From a virus: a stretch of 35,062 bases of DNA. Below the pieces are notes generated by a model. The model did not search any database. It was given only the letters and a program-made list of their open reading frames with translations, and was not told where the DNA came from. Below are positions 866 through 29,716 of the stretch, one piece after another (the stretch's first letter is position 1; each line of letters starts with the position of its first letter). The stretch is taken from the IMG/VR virus record IMGVR_UViG_3300046010_002683, positions 1 to 35,062 of that record; one strand, given 5' to 3'. The position numbers were made by a program, and so were the translations under genes.

Positions 866-877
866 TTTGTATATTTG
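848..877 (+). promoter_or_regulatory. Bacteroidetes-type promoter of the HNH-1 cassette
   Basis: TTG at 848-850 is followed by a 19-base spacer and TATATTTG at 870-877. This is a perfect fit to the TAnnTTTG -7 box known in Bacteroidetes, with a TTG upstream box. Transcription should begin near 883, right at the start of the structured RNA. The -7 box lies in sequence absent from the HNH-minus allele at the end of the window, so the cassette brings its own promoter. Confidence 0.7.
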
Positions 878-882
878 CATAT

Positions 883-965
883 CGAGTAGTGCCGATGAAT
901 AAGAACTTTTTTAAAGCCTTAGCGGATTGGTAGCACTACCCATGAAGCTAGGGTTTTTTTATTTT
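883..965 (+). ncRNA. Structured leader RNA 1 (predicted H-type pseudoknot with U-run)
   Basis: Stem 1 pairs GTAGTGC (886-892) with GCACTAC (933-939), seven perfect pairs. Stem 2 pairs 914-923 (AAGCCTTAGC) with 947-956 (GCTAGGGTTT), ten pairs including two G-U. Because 914-923 lies inside the stem 1 loop and its partner lies outside, the fold is an H-type pseudoknot. A T-run (954-960) begins inside the 3' strand of stem 2, and the HNH start codon follows at 966. The same topology recurs at 27347-27434 and, in looser form, at 22360-22433. It could act as a terminator or attenuator, a translational switch, or a small RNA. The pairing is visible; the role is inferred. Confidence 0.6.
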
Positions 966-1469
966 ATGGAAATATGGAAAGATGTACCTGGTTATGAAAG
1001 CAAATACCAGGTTAGTAATTTAGGAAATGTAAAATCATTGCCAAGATTAATGGAAAAAGGTAAGAATGTTTTTGTATCAAAAGAAAGAACATTAAAACCA
1101 TGTTTGTCAAAAGGATATAATAGATATGTTTTAAGTATTAATTCTATTAAAAAATCTTTTAAAGAACATCAATTAGTAGCGATGGCATTTCTTAATCATA
1201 TACCAAGTGGAAATAAATTAGTAGTAGATCATATCAACGATAATAAACTAGATAATAGATTAGAGAATTTACAAGTAGTTACTAATAGATTTAATACTTG
1301 TAAAACAAGAGGTAACTATTCAAGTAACTATAAAGGTGTAAATTGGCATAAGCATACACAAAAGTGGGTTAGTAGAATTATAATAAATAATAAAAGACAT
1401 TCATTAGGATACTTTAATTGTGAGTTAGCTGCTCACTTAGCATACCAAAACAAATTAAAAACAATATAA
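966..1469 (+). CDS. HNH homing endonuclease 1 (NUMOD4-HNH-AP2-like)
   Basis: A 167-residue site-specific DNA endonuclease of the free-standing phage homing type. Residues 1-25 (EIWKDVPGYESKYQVSNLG) are a NUMOD4 DNA-binding motif. The HNH core is formed by H68 and the block VVDHINDNKLDNRLENLQVV (residues 86-105, with D88-H89). The C-terminal part, about 108-160, contains YKGVNWHKHTQKWVSRI and HSLGYF, an AP2-like DNA-binding module. The ATG at 966 is chosen because NUMOD4 starts there in the paralogue at 22448; a start at 927 would translate the structured leader. The gene is absent from the second allele, so it is polymorphic cargo. Its target is probably the junction of the flanking genes. 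Confidence 0.9.
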   Translation: MEIWKDVPGYESKYQVSNLGNVKSLPRLMEKGKNVFVSKERTLKPCLSKGYNRYVLSINSIKKSFKEHQLVAMAFLNHIPSGNKLVVDHINDNKLDNRLENLQVVTNRFNTCKTRGNYSSNYKGVNWHKHTQKWVSRIIINNKRHSLGYFNCELAAHLAYQNKLKTI

Positions 1470-9176: not shown

Positions 9177-11599
9177 TGAAGAGAATTGTAGACATATACG
9201 TTGAAAGTATCAGTGGGAGTGGTGACTATTTAAAATTAGAATTGTTTAACGATGAGAAAATTGAGCTTACAAGTACGATTCAGAATATACAAGATATATC
9301 TAAGGTATACACCGACTTTACACAATCGTTTACCATACCAGCGAGTACAATTAATAATTCCATACTTCATCACTTTTATCAGTCGGATGTAAATATTACT
9401 AATAACGAATGGAATTTTAATTTTAGAATTAGAGCAAGAATTGAAATTGATTTAGTCCCATTTAGAACGGGTACTATAATGATGGAGAAAGCTAATATAA
9501 AGGATGGACGTACGGATAGTTATACGATTACTTTCTATGGTGACTTAGTAAGTCTTAAGGATAAGTTTGGAGATGCTAAGTTAAGCGATTTAGATTTTAC
9601 TTCATATGATATTGAATACACTGGCACAAATGTAATTAATAGAGTTAAGTCAAGTACATTAGAGAATGTGATGTTTCCGTTGATTAGTTCTAAAAGATTA
9701 TGGAGCTATGGAGATGGGGCTAGTACAGATGTTAAAACGGTTAAAGGTTCGATTAAGAATGACGAATTATTTCCGGCCTTAAAAGTTGCAAGGATATTAG
9801 ATGCAATTGAAGCAAAGTTTGACGTTGAATTTAATTCGCAGTTCTTTGTAAGTACAAATGATAAGTGGGAAAAGTTGTATTTATGGCTCAAGAATGAAGA
9901 GCAGTACACAGGAAAAACAAGTTCTACACCAGTGAATATTGTCGCGCCAAGCGGACAAACTATTGTCCCTGGATTCACTATGTATCCGTATTCTGTATCC
10001 CCAGTTCATTACACTGGATTTTCAGGGTTTTATTTTGATGGTTCCTTCTTTACTTGTAAATCAGTAGGAAACGTGACGAATCCTTTTGGTTCGGGACTTG
10101 TGTCAATAGACGCTCCAACGTTACAAATATCCGTACAAAGTGTTTCAGACGCTACAATTGAATATTACATAGACTTATATAAAGATGGTAAAGTTGTTAA
10201 AACAAAGACGAGTAAAGGTAAATTTTCCCCCTTAGATTTCTATACTTTCGCGCCTTCAGATAATGGAAGTGTATTTTTCTTTAGAATAAGAACTAAGGCG
10301 CCAATGACGTTAAACTTAGATGCTACTCTAAACTATAAATATTATAATAATTATAATCAACCAATATTTATTCCTTCAACTACCACTACTACAAAAACGG
10401 ATTTAAGTTCCAAAATGCCATCGATGACGGTTGCTGAATTCTTTAGCGGGTTGCTTAAGATGTTCAACGCTACTTGTTATGCTACGAGTGTAGATGTGTT
10501 TACAATTGAGCCTTTGGATATGTGGTATAATGGTGGTAACATTTACGATATTACAAACTATACAGATATAGATTCTATTGACGTTGAAAGAACAAATGTA
10601 TTCAAAAAATTGTCTTTCAAATATCAAAAGTCAGAATCGTTTTTAAATAGGGAATATTACGACAATGGAATAATGGAAAGAGAGTATGCAGACACTAATT
10701 TGACGTTATCAAACGAGGGTACGGATTATAGTGTTGAATTACCTTTTGAAAACTTATTGATGAACAATCTAAACGTTGACAACTTTCAGGTTGGGTATTG
10801 CTTAACAAAAGGTCCTGACTTTAAATCTTACATTCCTAAGCCAGTATTCTTATATTTTAACGAAAGAATTAACGATACTTTATACATGAATAATGGCACT
10901 ACATCGACGTTATGTAGCGACTTTAATATATTCAGTAATGTATTAGAGTCAAATGGTGGCTTATATTCTCTTACATTTCATCCTGAATCAGACGTTAAAA
11001 TCCCTAATGATACGTTAACTAATAATTTATACTCATTATACTATAGTAGCTACCTAGAAAACTTATTCAATCCTAAATGTAGACTTATAAGAATAAAGGC
11101 ACACTTCCCTTTGTCATTAATCACGAAATTACGATTGAATGATAGGTTAATAGTGCGAGATAAAAGATATATTATCAACGAACTTAAGTCTGACATTACA
11201 AGTGGGGAAGTCAGTCTAACTTTAATCAATGATTTTAGACCAATGCTTAACGATGCTATTACTCCTACAATAGTTATACCAAGTGGCGGTGGTACTGTTA
11301 CAATTCCTTATAAGGTTCCAAACGGGGTGATTAGCACAACGTTTTCATCTGGGGTTGCAGGTACTACAATATCACCAGGAAGCACAACTACAGATGCATC
11401 TATTGAAGTCACAGCGCCTGTAAACCCGTACACACCTACACCGATTTGGACCGAAAGCACAACGGATGTTATAATAACAGATGATGGATGGGGGATAGTA
11501 AACGAAGAAGGGTTTGGAGTTGTAATACCTGTTGATGCGACTAACTTAAATAATGATGGTACGACTTTTACAAATACAATTAATTTATTACAAGAATGA
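9176..11599 (+). CDS. Large tail/baseplate structural protein
   Basis: An 807-residue beta-rich protein starting MKRIVDIYVESISGSGDYLK. The first 150 residues (YTDFTQSFTIPAS, FRIRARIEIDLVPFRTGTIM) look like a tail-hub or distal-tail-like barrel that fixes the protein to the tail. The region around 400-480 (PSMTVAEFFSGLLKMFNATC) is reminiscent of hub proteins. The last 110 residues are low-complexity, rich in Thr, Pro, Gly and Val, and may form an exposed Ig-like or flexible domain. With the preceding gene it probably forms the baseplate. Unlike most siphovirus genomes, it precedes the tape-measure gene. Confidence 0.55.
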   Translation: MKRIVDIYVESISGSGDYLKLELFNDEKIELTSTIQNIQDISKVYTDFTQSFTIPASTINNSILHHFYQSDVNITNNEWNFNFRIRARIEIDLVPFRTGTIMMEKANIKDGRTDSYTITFYGDLVSLKDKFGDAKLSDLDFTSYDIEYTGTNVINRVKSSTLENVMFPLISSKRLWSYGDGASTDVKTVKGSIKNDELFPALKVARILDAIEAKFDVEFNSQFFVSTNDKWEKLYLWLKNEEQYTGKTSSTPVNIVAPSGQTIVPGFTMYPYSVSPVHYTGFSGFYFDGSFFTCKSVGNVTNPFGSGLVSIDAPTLQISVQSVSDATIEYYIDLYKDGKVVKTKTSKGKFSPLDFYTFAPSDNGSVFFFRIRTKAPMTLNLDATLNYKYYNNYNQPIFIPSTTTTTKTDLSSKMPSMTVAEFFSGLLKMFNATCYATSVDVFTIEPLDMWYNGGNIYDITNYTDIDSIDVERTNVFKKLSFKYQKSESFLNREYYDNGIMEREYADTNLTLSNEGTDYSVELPFENLLMNNLNVDNFQVGYCLTKGPDFKSYIPKPVFLYFNERINDTLYMNNGTTSTLCSDFNIFSNVLESNGGLYSLTFHPESDVKIPNDTLTNNLYSLYYSSYLENLFNPKCRLIRIKAHFPLSLITKLRLNDRLIVRDKRYIINELKSDITSGEVSLTLINDFRPMLNDAITPTIVIPSGGGTVTIPYKVPNGVISTTFSSGVAGTTISPGSTTTDASIEVTAPVNPYTPTPIWTESTTDVIITDDGWGIVNEEGFGVVIPVDATNLNNDGTTFTNTINLLQE

Positions 11600-11772
11600 T
11601 AGAGCAAATAATAGCACTTTTAAAGATAGATAATTTCTACGGAGTAAGTGAAAATATAGACATTGCAAAGGGAAAATATCTATTATCGGATAGTTTTCGC
11701 GTAAACTACAAACAAGGCAAAAGAGAGTTATTATTGAAAGCAAAGTACAATGGCAGAAAAGAAAGTAATTGA
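11596..11772 (+). CDS. Small tail-module protein, 58 residues
   Basis: A short open frame, ATG at 11596 overlapping the stop of the large tail gene (ATGA), ending TGA at 11770-11772 inside the start of the tape measure gene. The product begins MIEQIIALLKIDNFYGVSEN and is rich in Lys and Leu. It fills the only gap between two tail genes and keeps the stop-start overlap habit of this genome. Function unknown. Confidence 0.55.
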   Translation: MIEQIIALLKIDNFYGVSENIDIAKGKYLLSDSFRVNYKQGKRELLLKAKYNGRKESN

Positions 11773-13636
11773 ACTCGAAGTAAAGACAAACACTGAAGAT
11801 ATAAAGGGTAAATTTGCATCTTTAAAAAGCGAAATATCTAAAACTTCGGAAGAGGTAGAACAACTTACAAAAGCCTATGGTGAAAATAGTGACGAGGTAA
11901 AGCAAGCGTCTAAACAATTAGAGTCTCTTGAGAATGCGTATAGAGATTTAAATAAAGTAGCTACAGATGTCGGTGCTACATTCGAGGAGGTATATGGTGA
12001 TTTACAACCACTTACAACGAGAATGGGTGAAGCAGAAGATAGACTCTATGAATTAACTTTAGCTGGTAAAACAAACTCAAAAGAATATAAGGATTTATTA
12101 GGTGTTGTAGGTCAGTACAAACGTACCATGATGGAGACTGATATGGTGGTAGATGCTGCTGCTACAACAATGACAAGTAAATTAGGAGGTGCATTAGGGG
12201 GTGCTGCATCTGCATTTTCAGCAGTTGAAGGAGGAATGGCTTTAGTTGGAGTTGAGAGTGAGGACTTGCAAGCTACGATGGTAAAGTTACAAGCCGCAAT
12301 GGCACTCTCAGAAGGCATAAATGGCATAAAGGAATCTAGTGCTGCATTCAAACAATTAGGTGCTATAATAGGTCAAACTGCAATAGGTCAAAAATTACTT
12401 ACAGCAGCGCAAATAGTAGGTGCTGCAACTATGCGTGTTCTAAATGCTGTAATGGCTGCAAACCCAATACTCCTTGTAGTTGGTGCCGTAGGTGCTTTAG
12501 TTGCTGCTTTAGAAATATTAAAAAGAGGGCAAGATGATGCTGCTAATAAACAAAGGGAATTAAATAGACAATTAGAATACACAAAAAGATTAGAGAAAGA
12601 AAGTATAGACGCTACATCTGAGCACGTTAACGAATTAAAGAAACAGCACGAAAACAAGCTAAGATTAAAACAAGCTGAGGGAGCTAAGGATAGTGAGTTA
12701 GCAAAAATTGAAATTGACAATAAAAAAGAGATATTAAGATATTACAACTTAGTTTATCAAGGTGGAGCTAAATTAAATAAGGATCAATTAGCAGATGCAA
12801 AACAATTAAGAGAAGATATAAAAATATTACAAGCTCAACAACTAACTGATTTAAAGGAAGCAAACGCAGAAAAGAAAACAGAAATTAAAAAAGCAAATAA
12901 AGACCTATACGAACAAGACAGAATAGATTTAATAAATCAAGAGCAAGATGACATAGCAAGAGGTATTTTAGCTGATAATGCTGAGGCTGAAGCGGATAGA
13001 TTAGCAAAAGGAAATAAATTAAAATCAGAGGAGGAGTACTTTGGTTTATTAGTTGAGCTAGACGATCAAGCGAGAGAAGAAAAGAAAGCAAAAGACGCAG
13101 AAGATTTAGCAAATTCAAAATTAATTTCAGCTGCAAAGTTTGACATAGCAAGAAATACCTTTTCAGTAATTGGTGATTTAGCAAAGTCATTTGCTGGCAA
13201 GTCAGAGAGAGAACAAAAGAGAGCGTTTAATATTCAGAAAGCGGCTAATATTGCTGGTGCTGTAATGGATACTTATAAGGCTGCAAATGGTGCTTATGCC
13301 TCAATGTCAGGAATCCCCTATGTTGGTCCGTTTTTAGGTGCTGCGGCTGCGGCTGTTGCTATTGGTGCAGGTATAGCAAACGTTAACAATATTCGTAATC
13401 AAGAATTTGGTGGGGGGGGAAGTGCTAGTTCAGCTCCATCTAGCACAGGCAGTCTTGGTGGTGGTGGTGGATCTAATAACCAAGCAATAACACCGAACTT
13501 TAATATTATAGGCAACCAAAACCAAACGCAATTAGCACAATTAAATCAAGCACCCGTTAAAGCGTATGTTGTAGGTTCGGACGTTACGACACAGCAAATG
13601 TTAGATAAGAAAAAAATACAAAACGCTACAATTTAA
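11750..13636 (+). CDS. Tape measure protein
   Basis: A 628-residue protein with long heptad-like helices at both sides (residues 1-120 and about 270-470, rich in Lys, Glu, Ala and Asp). There is a hydrophobic stretch near 237-256 (NPILLVVGAVGALVAALEIL) and a second, alanine-rich one near 525-545, followed by a Gly/Ser-rich linker. Such proteins fill the tail tube, set its length and may insert into the host membrane during DNA entry. By length this suggests a short-to-medium tail. It overlaps a 58-residue gene upstream. Confidence 0.8.
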   Translation: MAEKKVIELEVKTNTEDIKGKFASLKSEISKTSEEVEQLTKAYGENSDEVKQASKQLESLENAYRDLNKVATDVGATFEEVYGDLQPLTTRMGEAEDRLYELTLAGKTNSKEYKDLLGVVGQYKRTMMETDMVVDAAATTMTSKLGGALGGAASAFSAVEGGMALVGVESEDLQATMVKLQAAMALSEGINGIKESSAAFKQLGAIIGQTAIGQKLLTAAQIVGAATMRVLNAVMAANPILLVVGAVGALVAALEILKRGQDDAANKQRELNRQLEYTKRLEKESIDATSEHVNELKKQHENKLRLKQAEGAKDSELAKIEIDNKKEILRYYNLVYQGGAKLNKDQLADAKQLREDIKILQAQQLTDLKEANAEKKTEIKKANKDLYEQDRIDLINQEQDDIARGILADNAEAEADRLAKGNKLKSEEEYFGLLVELDDQAREEKKAKDAEDLANSKLISAAKFDIARNTFSVIGDLAKSFAGKSEREQKRAFNIQKAANIAGAVMDTYKAANGAYASMSGIPYVGPFLGAAAAAVAIGAGIANVNNIRNQEFGGGGSASSAPSSTGSLGGGGGSNNQAITPNFNIIGNQNQTQLAQLNQAPVKAYVVGSDVTTQQMLDKKKIQNATI

Positions 13637-22350: not shown

Positions 22351-22358
22351 TATATTTA
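22328..22358 (+). promoter_or_regulatory. Promoter of the HNH-2 cassette
   Basis: TTG at 22328-22330, a 20-base spacer and TATATTTA at 22351-22358, one change from TAnnTTTG. It starts inside the end of the preceding gene and leads straight into leader RNA 2. Confidence 0.5.
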
Positions 22359-22359
22359 C

Positions 22360-22447
22360 ATTGGAGTTAAGATTTAGCGGTCTTATGCAAAAGGTTCACG
22401 TTCCTGCTCCATTCTTTTTTTAACAACGTGAATAAAAACGTAAAATT
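22360..22447 (+). ncRNA. Structured leader RNA 2 (predicted pseudoknot)
   Basis: Stem 1 pairs TGGAG (22362-22366) with CTCCA (22407-22411). Stem 2 pairs TTCACGTT (22395-22402), inside the stem 1 loop, with AACGTGAA (22425-22432) outside it: eight perfect pairs and an H-type pseudoknot. A local hairpin pairs TAAGA (22368-22372) with TCTTA (22381-22385). A run of seven Ts (22415-22421) separates the two 3' strands. The order differs from leader 1, where the Ts follow stem 2, so a common origin is uncertain, but a TTAGCGG heptamer occurs in both. It leads into HNH 2 at 22448. Confidence 0.5.
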
Positions 22448-26933: not shown

Positions 26934-27312
26934 AAAAAGTAGAAAAGGTAGAAACTTGTATAAAATTTAGGTGTTTTGTAACGTATTGATTTATATAATT
27001 TTAAAGGAAACTTGAAAAACTTAAAAAACGCTTAACTTATTGATACTCATAGAAAGTAATAAAAGGTTAAAAGTGTTTTGCTATATTACACTAAAACAAT
27101 AAATAAAAAAAAAAGTGAAAAAAGTTTTAACTTTATACGTAAACTACTATAAATCAACAAACTAATCAAAAACAAGTTTCCTTTAAATTATTGATATTTA
27201 ACAACTTACAAAACATCAAAGTTTCTACATTTTTAAGCAAAGTTTTAACCTTTTTACGTTTTTCGCAAAATTCAACATTTTATTTAGAATGAATATAAAT
27301 AACGATTAAATG
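26934..27312. other. AT-rich non-coding region with long inverted repeat, candidate replication origin
   Basis: The longest gap without genes. The arms 26948-27014 and 27173-27228 form an extended imperfect inverted repeat: both start with GTAGAAACTT on their own strand, share TGTTTTGTAA, and meet at TTTAAAGGAAACTTG (near 27000-27014, complement near 27173-27187). Between them and to the right are copies of an AGGTTAAAA-like word, at 27064-27072 and inverted at 27123-27134 and 27240-27255. It lies between the phosphoesterase and helicase genes. Repeats, AT richness and context suggest an origin, but a regulatory region or degraded insertion is possible. Confidence 0.5.
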
Positions 27313-27342
27313 TTGTTTATATAAAATAATATAGTAATTTAG
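27313..27342 (+). promoter_or_regulatory. Promoter of the IbrA/IbrB-like cassette
   Basis: TTG at 27313-27315, a 19-base spacer and TAATTTAG at 27335-27342, one change from TAnnTTTG. Spacing is identical to the promoter of HNH cassette 1. It leads within five bases into leader RNA 3. Confidence 0.5.
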
Positions 27343-27344
27343 CA

Positions 27345-27440
27345 AAGTGTTAGGTCTCAAACATTGTAACACTTAAGATATTTGCCCTATCGATTTGTAA
27401 ACTTGAGACCTTTACACTTCGATGGGGCTTTTTTATTTAA
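27345..27440 (+). ncRNA. Structured leader RNA 3 (predicted H-type pseudoknot with U-run)
   Basis: Stem 1 pairs GTGT and GGTCTCAA (27347-27360) with TTGAGACC and ACAC (27403-27417), 12 pairs around a small internal loop. Stem 2 pairs GCCCTATCGA (27384-27393) with TCGATGGGGC (27419-27428), ten pairs with one G-U. The 5' strand of stem 2 lies in the stem 1 loop, so this is an H-type pseudoknot, followed by six Ts. The order of elements is the same as in leader 1. An alternative pairing GTGTTA with TAACAC (27347-27352, 27367-27372) could compete with stem 1, so a switch is conceivable. Start codon at 27454. Confidence 0.65.
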
Positions 27441-27453
27441 ACAAATTATTATT

Positions 27454-27849
27454 ATGGAAAAAAGAATTTATCATCCATATTGGTTATGGGAAGATTATTT
27501 AAATGGATTTTACGAAAATTCATCAGGACAACAAAAAAACATAGATATACAAAAATGTATAGAGATGTTTAATAGTCAAGAGTTAACAATAAAAAACATG
27601 AATTATGTAGTTGATAATTGGAAATATTCAATGGAACATAACCTAACAAATAGCTCAATGAATCATATAGCTTATGTAGGTCAAAGTGCTTGCTGTAATT
27701 ATGCTAAAATACCAAATACAATAACAATGGAATGTTGGTCTAAACTAACAAAAGAAGTACAGGAAAGAGCAAATAAAAATGCTTTAGATTCAATACAAAG
27801 ATGGAAATTAAACAATAAATTTATTCAATTATGCCTAAAATTAGATTAG
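27454..27849 (+). CDS. Small protein of the IbrA/IbrB-like cassette
   Basis: A 131-residue protein starting MEKRIYHPYWLWEDYLNGFY. It has NWKYSMEHNLTNSSMNHIAY and GQSACCNYAKIPNTITMECW. I recall similar small proteins encoded directly before PAPS-reductase-like genes in phages of Bacteroidetes and Firmicutes; no function is known to me. The ATG at 27454 is preferred; a longer frame from 27382 would read through the pseudoknot. It overlaps the next gene by 19 bases. Confidence 0.7.
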   Translation: MEKRIYHPYWLWEDYLNGFYENSSGQQKNIDIQKCIEMFNSQELTIKNMNYVVDNWKYSMEHNLTNSSMNHIAYVGQSACCNYAKIPNTITMECWSKLTKEVQERANKNALDSIQRWKLNNKFIQLCLKLD

Positions 27850-29045
27850 ATAAAAATGTATACGATGCATCTATTGAAAGGATAAATTACACACTTGATA
27901 ATTTTAAGAAAGTATATTTATCTTTTAGTGCTGGTAAAGATAGTACAGTGATGCTTCATTTAACAATGCAAGAAGTAAAAAAAAGAAACGCTAAAATAGG
28001 TGTTTTAATAGTAGACTTAGAAGGACAGTATAAATTAACTATAGACCATATATACGCTTGTATTGAAGAATATAAAGACAATATAGATTTATACTGGGTT
28101 TGTTTACCTATACACTTAAGAAATGCAGTATCTGTTTATGATCCTTTTTGGAAGTGTTGGGATTCAGAACAAAAAGAAAATTGGATAAGACCACTACCTA
28201 AAAAATGTATTTCAGACATTAATTATTTTTCGTTTTTTAGAGATGGAATGGAGTTCGAAGAGTTTGTTCCTGAGTTTGGAGAATGGTATTCACAAGGAGA
28301 GTTAACAGCTTGTTTAGTTGGTATTCGTTCAGATGAATCATTGAATAGGTATAGAACAATAGCTTCTAAAACAAAAGAAAGGTTTGATAATAAGGTTTAT
28401 ACCACAAAAGTAACTGATAATGTATTTAATGTTTACCCTATTTACGATTGGAAAACAGAAGATATTTGGATTTACCACGCTAAAAATAAAGATAAAATAT
28501 CTAATGGACTTTATGAATTAATGTTTAAAGCTGGTTTATCTATTCATCAACAAAGAATATGTCAACCTTATGGTGATGACCAAAGACGTGGGTTATGGCT
28601 ATTTCATTTGATTGAGCCTGAAACATGGGCTAAAGTAGTAGCAAGGGTTAATGGAGCAAATTCAGGAGCTTTATACATAAATGAAAGCGGAAGCATAACA
28701 GGGTATAATAAAATAACAAAACCTAATAATCACACATGGAAATCATTTGCTGAATTATTTTTAAATAGTATTCCTGAAAAAACAAAAGAGCATTATTTAA
28801 ATAAAATATTTACATTTGACAAATGGTGGAAAGAAAGAGGTTATGATAATGGCATACCTGACGAAGCTCCTTATATTTTAGAATCCAAAAAAATAGCACC
28901 TAGTTGGAGGAGAGTATGTAAGTCTTTACTTAGAAATGATTTTTGGTGTAAAGGATTAGGATTTACACAACATAAAACAAAAGCATATTCTAAATATTTA
29001 GAATTAAAAAAACAACAAAGAATTGAAAATAAATTTTTAAAATAA
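27831..29045 (+). CDS. ibrA-like: PAPS-reductase-like PP-loop protein (DUF3440/IbrA-like)
   Basis: A 404-residue protein. The PP-loop SFSAGKDS (31-38) binds the phosphates of ATP or an adenylylated nucleotide. It continues with LIVDLEGQYKLTIDHIYACI, the cysteine-containing WKCWDSEQ, LVGIRSDESLNRYRT and YPIYDWKTEDIW. This is the layout of the DUF3440 group of the PAPS reductase family, which includes E. coli IbrA. Its reaction in phages is unknown; sulfur or nucleotide chemistry on DNA or RNA is a guess. It is paired with a ParB-like gene, as ibrA is with ibrB. Confidence 0.85.
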   Translation: MPKIRLDKNVYDASIERINYTLDNFKKVYLSFSAGKDSTVMLHLTMQEVKKRNAKIGVLIVDLEGQYKLTIDHIYACIEEYKDNIDLYWVCLPIHLRNAVSVYDPFWKCWDSEQKENWIRPLPKKCISDINYFSFFRDGMEFEEFVPEFGEWYSQGELTACLVGIRSDESLNRYRTIASKTKERFDNKVYTTKVTDNVFNVYPIYDWKTEDIWIYHAKNKDKISNGLYELMFKAGLSIHQQRICQPYGDDQRRGLWLFHLIEPETWAKVVARVNGANSGALYINESGSITGYNKITKPNNHTWKSFAELFLNSIPEKTKEHYLNKIFTFDKWWKERGYDNGIPDEAPYILESKKIAPSWRRVCKSLLRNDFWCKGLGFTQHKTKAYSKYLELKKQQRIENKFLK

Positions 29046-29050
29046 AAACT

Positions 29051-29716
29051 ATGAAAACTACAATTTTAGAAAAGCAAAATGAAGTTATTAACGCTTTAAG
29101 ATACTTATCACTTGATGATAAAGTTGATGTAATTAACGAAATCAAAAAACAATTACACGAAGTAAGTCCATTTAATACAGAGCCAGTAGATTGCGTTCTT
29201 TGGGTTAAAAACGATAGTGTTCATGCTAATGATTACAATCCAAATAGTGTTGCACCGCCTGAAATGGAATTGTTAAGATTATCAATATCAAATGATGGGT
29301 ACACACAACCTATTGTATCAATGGACAACAATAATGGTACTAGAGAAGTTATTGATGGTTTTCATAGAAACAGAGTTGGTAAAGAATGTGAGGATATCCA
29401 AAAAAGAGTACATGGATATTTGCCTGTAGTTACTATTAGAGAGTCTCAGTCAGATAAAAACAATCGTGTAGCATCTACAATTAGACATAATAGAGCTAGA
29501 GGAAAACATAAAGTTGAATCCATGTCAGAAATTGTTGTTGATTTAAAAAGACGAAATTGGTCAGACGAAAAAATATCTAAAGAATTAGGCATGGATAGAG
29601 ATGAAGTATTAAGACTATGCCAAATTAGTGGATTAACTGAATTGTTTTCAGATAAAGAATTTTCAATAGCGTGGATTCCTGAGATGGAAGAATTTGAAGA
29701 CGAAATAGAAGATTAA
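29051..29716 (+). CDS. ibrB-like: ParB-like nuclease-domain protein (IbrB-like)
   Basis: A 221-residue protein with a ParB/sulfiredoxin-type domain: DYNPNSVAPPEMELLRLSIS, then GYTQPIVSMD, DGFHRNRVGKE (102-112) and ASTIRHNRARGKHK. A helix-turn-helix follows at about 169-190 (NWSDEKISKELGMDRDEVLR). The pairing with the PP-loop gene is the known IbrA/IbrB arrangement. ParB-like domains of this type bind CTP or have nucleotide or DNA activity; which applies here is unknown. The end is acidic. Confidence 0.85.
   Translation: MKTTILEKQNEVINALRYLSLDDKVDVINEIKKQLHEVSPFNTEPVDCVLWVKNDSVHANDYNPNSVAPPEMELLRLSISNDGYTQPIVSMDNNNGTREVIDGFHRNRVGKECEDIQKRVHGYLPVVTIRESQSDKNNRVASTIRHNRARGKHKVESMSEIVVDLKRRNWSDEKISKELGMDRDEVLRLCQISGLTELFSDKEFSIAWIPEMEEFEDEIED

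Follow-up and report, generated by a model that had tools for sequence, protein, structure and literature searches.

The stretch of DNA analysed here, which we call the window, is the 35,062-nt IMG/VR virus record IMGVR_UViG_3300046010_002683. It carries tailed-phage genes (terminase) and Bacteroidota-type promoters. At two places on its + strand a promoter is followed by a structured leader and a gene (Table 1). Leader 2 (27345-27434) precedes an open reading frame of 131 aa with no Pfam or PHROG match, itself followed by genes for an IbrA-like and an IbrB-like protein, and leader 1 precedes a homing endonuclease gene.

Several other features of the window were noted. Between the last early gene and the IbrA cassette lies an AT-rich non-coding stretch of about 400 nt (26934-27340) with inverted repeats such as AAAGGAAACTTG / CAAGTTTCCTTT. 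A block of about four genes is present in two diverged copies, one at each contig end (154-2470 and 33288-34984; example sequences MKIVADLTDKHE... and MKIVADLNDSQE...). A third promoter (TATATTTAC), structured leader and T-run occupy 22357-22447, 5' of a second NUMOD4/HNH gene (22448); this leader has a mainly nested fold (TGGAG...CTCCA, followed by TTCTTTTTTT) that departs from the kissing architecture described below.

Table 1. Positions of the two leaders, their promoter elements and the neighbouring genes in the window
Feature	Position	Strand	Basis
-33 element TTG, Bacteroidota-type promoter of leader 2	27313..27315	+	sequence
-7 element TAATTTAG of leader 2 (family consensus TAnnTTTG)	27335..27342	+	sequence
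S0 5' arm (hairpin 1); expected transcript 5' end	27345..27352	+	MFE structure; family covariation
S1 5' arm, kissing helix, within hairpin 1 loop	27353..27360	+	crossing helix; family covariation
Loop segment ACATTG, counterpart of family ATTATA	27361..27366	+	position in alignment
S0 3' arm	27367..27374	+	MFE structure; family covariation
A/T-rich linker AAGATATTT (family AAGNNATT-like)	27375..27383	+	alignments
S2 5' arm, base of hairpin 2	27384..27393	+	MFE structure; covariation; shuffle test
S3 5' arm	27396..27401	+	MFE structure; covariation; shuffle test
S1 3' arm, apical loop of hairpin 2	27403..27410	+	crossing helix; covariation; shuffle test
S3 3' arm	27411..27416	+	MFE structure; covariation; shuffle test
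S2 3' arm, GC-rich base adjoining T-run	27419..27428	+	MFE structure; covariation
T-run TTTTTT, terminator-like	27429..27434	+	sequence
First gene after leader 2, 131 aa	27454..27849	+	
IbrA-like PAPS-reductase/DUF3440 protein	27831..29045	+	profile matches
IbrB-like ParB-fold protein	29051..29716	+	phrog_2159, E 5e-71
-7 element TATATTTG of leader 1	870..877	+	
Leader 1 (probably subtype B)	880..957	+	S0 880-883/894-897, S1 886-892/933-939, S2 913-923/947-957, S3 928-930/940-942
NUMOD4-HNH-AP2 homing endonuclease, 3' of leader 1	966..1469	+	

Two hairpins joined by a kissing helix

A sequence-only reading of this DNA had proposed a TTG-N19-TAATTTAG promoter, two crossing helices, a T-run and a start codon ahead of the IbrA cassette, and all of these are present where it placed them, with the ATG (27454) 20 nt past the T-run. 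The anatomy differs in part from the one it drew. The minimum-energy structure of leader 2 (-30.0 kcal/mol, z = -5.7, with 0 of 200 shuffles as good) consists of S0 and a long hairpin in which S2 is capped by S3, and not of the proposed 12-pair first stem. The apical loops hold GGTCTCAA and TTGAGACC, which pair with each other as S1. This crossing helix is 8-9 bp long (27352/27353-27360 with 27403-27410/27411); at the extra pairs of the 12-pair stem (about 27345-27350 with 27413-27418) pairing in the family equals that of permuted controls and is not conserved. S3 is a fourth helix that had been overlooked.

One explanation for such stems is chance, namely fortuitous pairing in AT-rich intergenic DNA, and single crossing stems with a T-run do arise in shuffled sequence. 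Comparable stems in shuffles had been named beforehand as grounds for giving up the proposal. Among 2000 dinucleotide shuffles, none of those of the 150-nt stretch of leader 2 and one for leader 1 reached the observed score of crossing stems plus T-run, so the proposal withstands this control. An unbiased scan of the whole window for crossing stems of at least 7 bp gave seven + strand matches, only two of which, 886-957 and 27352-27428, have a T-run next to them. The shuffle counts, the covariation and the placement of promoters and reading frames given below all argue against chance, and the covariation in alignment A6 refutes it; we give this explanation practically no weight. Leader 2 is a real structured RNA of two hairpins joined by a loop-loop (kissing) helix.

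The claimed likeness of the two leaders holds for order and spacing, which they share with different and unrelated bases, but it does not extend to the plain nested fold, unremarkable in leader 1 (z = -1.9). Leader 1 was assigned to the family defined below through the descriptor, in subtype B spacing, with an S0 of only 4 bp and an S3 of only 3 bp; covariance model R1 does not recover it. It probably belongs to subtype B.

A family defined by covariation

The family search started from IMG/VR relatives of the IbrA-like protein, the HNH protein and the 131-aa reading frame. We used a descriptor that located S1, S2 and the T-run first and scored S0 and S3 afterwards. At a score of at least 52 it returned 41 non-redundant matches in real sequence, while shuffled sequence of the same total length yielded 1. 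S0 and S3 played no part in finding candidates and beat shuffling of the unpaired letters by about 3 and about 6 standard deviations respectively. Descriptor matches alone are circular as evidence of covariation, and we therefore also scanned with patterns made mostly of unpaired conserved bases. The IMG/VR pattern (CATTATA...AATGAA...GGATTT) matched at least 120 stretches; among the matches listed, about half of the distinct ones have a T-run and nearly all of those also have a TAnnTTTG-like box.

Covariance model R1, built on S0, S2 and S3 only from eight elements, recovered further family members; the match of leader 2 to it at E 2e-9 is by construction, as leader 2 is among the eight training sequences. 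Model R2, derived from A6, was too narrow and missed the window, and R1 was used instead. A blastn search with one leader against the named phages gave no match, while the descriptor did find elements in them. This null result is as expected because form is conserved without conserved sequence.

MAFFT alignments (A1-A3) lost the register of S0 and were therefore replaced by padded fixed-anchor alignments (A4, A6 and A8). A6 consists of 37 distinct rows picked for standard spacing among the pattern matches listed. In these rows 96.2% of 1073 cells are paired compared to 66.9 +/- 1.0 after shuffling, 25 of the 29 pairs changed on both sides (double compensatory), and the covariation score is 0.794 versus 0.198 +/- 0.013 shuffled. 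Sliding the partner by one to three columns leaves pairing at only 34-45%. All six S0 pairs covary; in the kissing helix S1, 99.3% of cells pair and six of the eight pairs show double changes. Two invariant pairs in S1 and two in S2 lie at or beside pattern bases and are uninformative. For arms taken at fixed distances from the pattern among the matches listed, pairing versus permuted partners is 84 vs 50% (S0), 84 vs 62% (S1), 94 vs 67% (S2) and 91 vs 50% (S3). G-U cells number 63 and A-C cells 3, and thus the functional RNA strand is the gene strand. Subtype B, sought with a second pattern for its other spacing, was found in 15 contigs, phage 11b included; it pairs at 100% compared to 88.9% in the control and covaries too.

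The family RNA is about 85-95 nt long and comprises hairpin 1 (S0), hairpin 2 (S2, an internal loop and S3) and the 8-bp kissing helix S1. In subtype A the -7 box is followed after about 4 nt by S0 (6 bp), S1 (8 bp), ATTATA, the 3' arm of S0 and a linker of 10-16 nt of the form AAAGNANTTATT. The 3' part runs S2 (11 bp), TGAA, S3 (4 bp), AA/AG, the 3' arms of S1 and S3, GGAT, the 3' arm of S2, the U-run and, about 22 nt later, the ATG. ATTATA, TGAA and GGAT are bases of the search pattern, so that their invariance in A6 is partly imposed; they also recur in descriptor matches found without the pattern. S0 directly adjoins S1 in subtype A, as does the 3' arm of S1 that of S3. Since hardly any unpaired bases, or none, separate S0, S1 and S3, these helices could stack as one rod atop S2. 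In subtype B 1-3 nt separate S0 and S1, and GAAA often stands on the 3' side of the internal loop. Leader 2 has S0 to S3 in family spacing, the -7 box before S0, the T-run and the ATG.

The idea that a competing pairing (27347-27352 with 27367-27372) acts as a switch was not borne out: these bases are part of the conserved S0, which coexists with S1 and S2. Switching by some other helix was also considered and rejected, no alternative in A6 covarying comparably with the four helices. The idea of conserved form without conserved sequence is supported: the architecture turns up across dozens of phage contigs, and each of the four helices covaries strongly. S1 pairs over 6-10 bp inside one element and over 1-5 bp between elements of the same genome: each element has a private S1 sequence, and same-genome elements do not cross-pair. 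The family is real and its structure is settled.

Rfam 15 gave 0 matches for the window and 0 at E<=1 in seven element loci; no family, those of riboswitches, ribozymes and phage RNAs included, reached its gathering threshold, and the best sub-threshold matches lay far below. The literature searched holds no description of such leaders. The family is undescribed by the Rfam 15 and literature searches made.

Promoters, downstream genes and range

Gene context was assessed for 90 elements pooled from the pattern set (matches listed) and the descriptor set, a few contigs being counted twice. A strict TAnnTTTG stands 15-21 nt before S1 in 71 of the 90, compared to 1% of random positions, and 19 of 83 family promoters have a TTG 19 nt upstream of the -7 box (2.5 expected). 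The placement of TAnnTTTG puts the expected transcription start at the foot of hairpin 1. A reading frame starts 7-45 nt downstream of the element in 85/90 cases (23% at random). The base of S2 is GC-rich and the S2/S3 hairpin has a folding energy of -15.7 +/- 1.9 kcal/mol. All 50 pattern elements measured, which were preselected for a T-run among the matches listed, have at least 6 T in 8 beside the hairpin; the T-run is interrupted in 3 of about 50 pattern-selected elements among the matches listed.

It is conceivable that the leader serves as a 5'-end or translation element, the folded 5' end blocking 5'-dependent decay and the U/A-rich unstructured stretch loading ribosomes in a phylum with little Shine-Dalgarno use. 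With the promoter box 16-20 nt before S1, hairpin 1 does open only a few nt from where transcription should start, and a median of 22 nt separates the U-run from the start codon. A simple stem would suffice for such a role, though, while covariation keeps an elaborate kissing architecture. A T-run directly abutting a GC-rich stem, as found here, is moreover a hallmark of termination rather than of ribosome loading. We consider this explanation quite unlikely.

The genes that follow are diverse. DUF6291 proteins make up 18 of 84 downstream proteins and HNH/NUMOD4 proteins 10 of 84, the latter count being enriched by the HNH query; DnaD-like, replication initiation, Lin1244_N, methylase and helicase families also occur, and many proteins are 57-81 aa long without a named family. 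That one RNA class serves unrelated genes, as the sequence-only reading had it, is therefore upheld, from DUF6291/DnaD-like, HNH, methylase and helicase genes to small reading frames and the first reading frame of the IbrA cassette.

The small-protein loci are L114, L149, L165, L193, L216, L229, L263, L026, L028, L045 and tooticki9-1 (L313, about 12767). Several of these proteins end in a similar helix (e.g. ICLDKPTAVKLVKELK), and a profile of them finds the tooticki9-1 member at E 7e-7. A AGTTNNNGGTAATCTTA-like stretch is shared between T-run and small-protein gene in L313 (after 12732), L318 (after 10451), L045 (after 6840) and L114 (after 5320). The small proteins may possibly be regulators or common cargo. 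As the source of a regulator of the leaders they were rejected: they differ widely among themselves, and the window was found to contain none.

If the element were an independent small RNA, transcribed from a promoter and ended by a terminator of its own and acting on the next gene as a regulator, a decoy or a type III-like RNA antitoxin, it would show the same promoter-RNA-terminator-gene order as type III toxin-antitoxin and AbiF loci (PMC12373285). These loci likewise place a pseudoknotted or motif RNA plus terminator before a gene and are often phage-borne. Unlike them, the leader has no tandem repeats, and its downstream genes belong to many unrelated families, with no type III (ToxN-like) or Abi_2 toxin among the 84 proteins. 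The gene begins about 22 nt past the stem, leaving little room for its own promoter, and S1 differs in each copy. A stand-alone RNA thus appears improbable.

Absence of the pattern from related cassettes had also been named as a result that would speak against the family. An element lies in the expected place in 13 of 74 IbrA relatives, so the family stands on this count; because only these 13 carry one, the leader is no constant component of the IbrA cassette, and relatives of the small reading frame mostly lack it.

Cultured phages with elements are Flavobacterium phage 11b (33634-33718), Muminvirus tooticki9-1 (two elements, 11600-11678 and 12637-12732), Cellulophaga phi13:2 and phi19:1 (10367-10451 in phi19:1), and Polaribacter P12002L. 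In 299 genomes of one host family, that of Poritiphilus flavus, which we take to be Flavobacteriaceae, we found one match, on a short contig, with stricter filters that would miss weak matches, so that this count is not directly comparable with the phage counts. The lone match precedes a reading frame that resembles a replication initiator by eye. The elements are almost restricted to phages.

Leader 1 appears to move together with its gene. The segment 855-1470 (leader 1 plus HNH) is missing from the syntenic place in several contigs of terminase-sharing relatives, and in relatives L352 and L358 it sits elsewhere as one unit. Leader 1 is better conserved than its own gene, 75-77 of 78 nt of the RNA (96-99%) being identical in L082, L352 and L358 compared to 71-73% of the HNH coding sequence. 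Such conservation points to particular bases being recognised in addition to pairing or, alternatively, to recent homogenisation.

What the leaders may do

The leader probably works as a switch or brake built into the beginning of the gene that it precedes. The reading we favour, at about even confidence, is that the family consists of cis-acting leader RNAs of Bacteroidota phages that would work as promoter-proximal conditional terminators, because S2 and the U-run together look like an intrinsic terminator placed ahead of the gene. Close to the promoter, hairpin 2 and the U-run would terminate transcription intrinsically or make it pause; the kissing helix would form just before RNA polymerase reaches the U-run and so set the amount of transcription into the gene. 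Terminator efficiency would depend on the kissing helix and, probably, on a factor of phage or host origin, which perhaps recognises bases of the linker and internal loop. Each phage operon or mobile gene under such control would have an element to itself, with a private S1.

Like riboswitch and attenuator leaders, these elements show the order promoter, structured RNA, GC-rich stem with U-run, gene; the stem and U-run lie between promoter and start codon in the 50 elements preselected for a T-run among the matches listed. Unlike such leaders they have no metabolic gene theme, are nearly phage-only and have no Rfam match, and no conserved mutually exclusive antiterminator pairing was found, only four helices covarying strongly in A6. 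Without a conserved competing helix the leader is not a classical alternative-pairing attenuator, and any switch would work otherwise. Some points weaken the terminator reading. In subtype B an A intervenes between stem and T-run, and T-runs are interrupted in a few elements as noted above. An always-on terminator before a gene would also be costly, so that a relieving factor must exist, which we count against this reading.

The main rival is a put-like role, in which the nascent leader would bind RNA polymerase and make it resist downstream terminators and pauses, so that early operons are read through and the U-run is a spacer or pause. HK022 put binds the beta' zinc-binding domain of RNA polymerase and gives factor-independent antitermination. 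The leaders resemble putL and putR in being phage-borne, cis-acting and promoter-proximal and in lying before early operons; they are also of similar length, putL being about 70 nt long and located just downstream of an early promoter (PMC9378689). Their very compact fold and the frequency of replication-initiation genes downstream fit this role as well. However, put is a pair of stem-loops of a lambdoid phage, without kissing helix or terminator, whereas the new family has S0, S2 and S3 with the crossing S1, comes in many copies and many sequences, and in all 50 members measured (matches listed, preselected for a T-run) ends in a GC stem plus U-run; nor is there a sequence or Rfam link to put. 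We hold a put-like role to be rather unlikely, and favour the conditional terminator over it and, after it, over control at the 5' end or of translation.

Kissing-loop RNA pairs likewise join two hairpins by loop-loop pairing; here the kiss is in cis and 6-10 bp long, S1 joins S0 and S3 directly, and the second hairpin is terminator-like. More speculatively, and with less than even probability, the elements might constitute an RNA regulon peculiar to phages. Each regulated operon would have one copy of a dedicated kissing-loop terminator, or of a dedicated RNA that modifies RNA polymerase, with its private loop-loop sequence, and one phage- or host-encoded factor would read the conserved linker and internal loop. 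If this is true, Bacteroidota phages encode in their genomes a means of timing early genes that differs from lambda N/Q and from HK022 put.

Structured RNAs with such covariation are usually functional. The kissing-leader family occurs widely among the phages of a major bacterial phylum and is absent from the RNA catalogues searched, and its presence in cultured phages makes its function directly testable. As a set, the elements would be naturally orthogonal kissing-loop terminators if the putative terminator role holds. Cargo and homing genes that move with an expression module of their own can be recognised by the leader, which would also offer a handle on the timing of early and cargo genes in flavobacterial phages.
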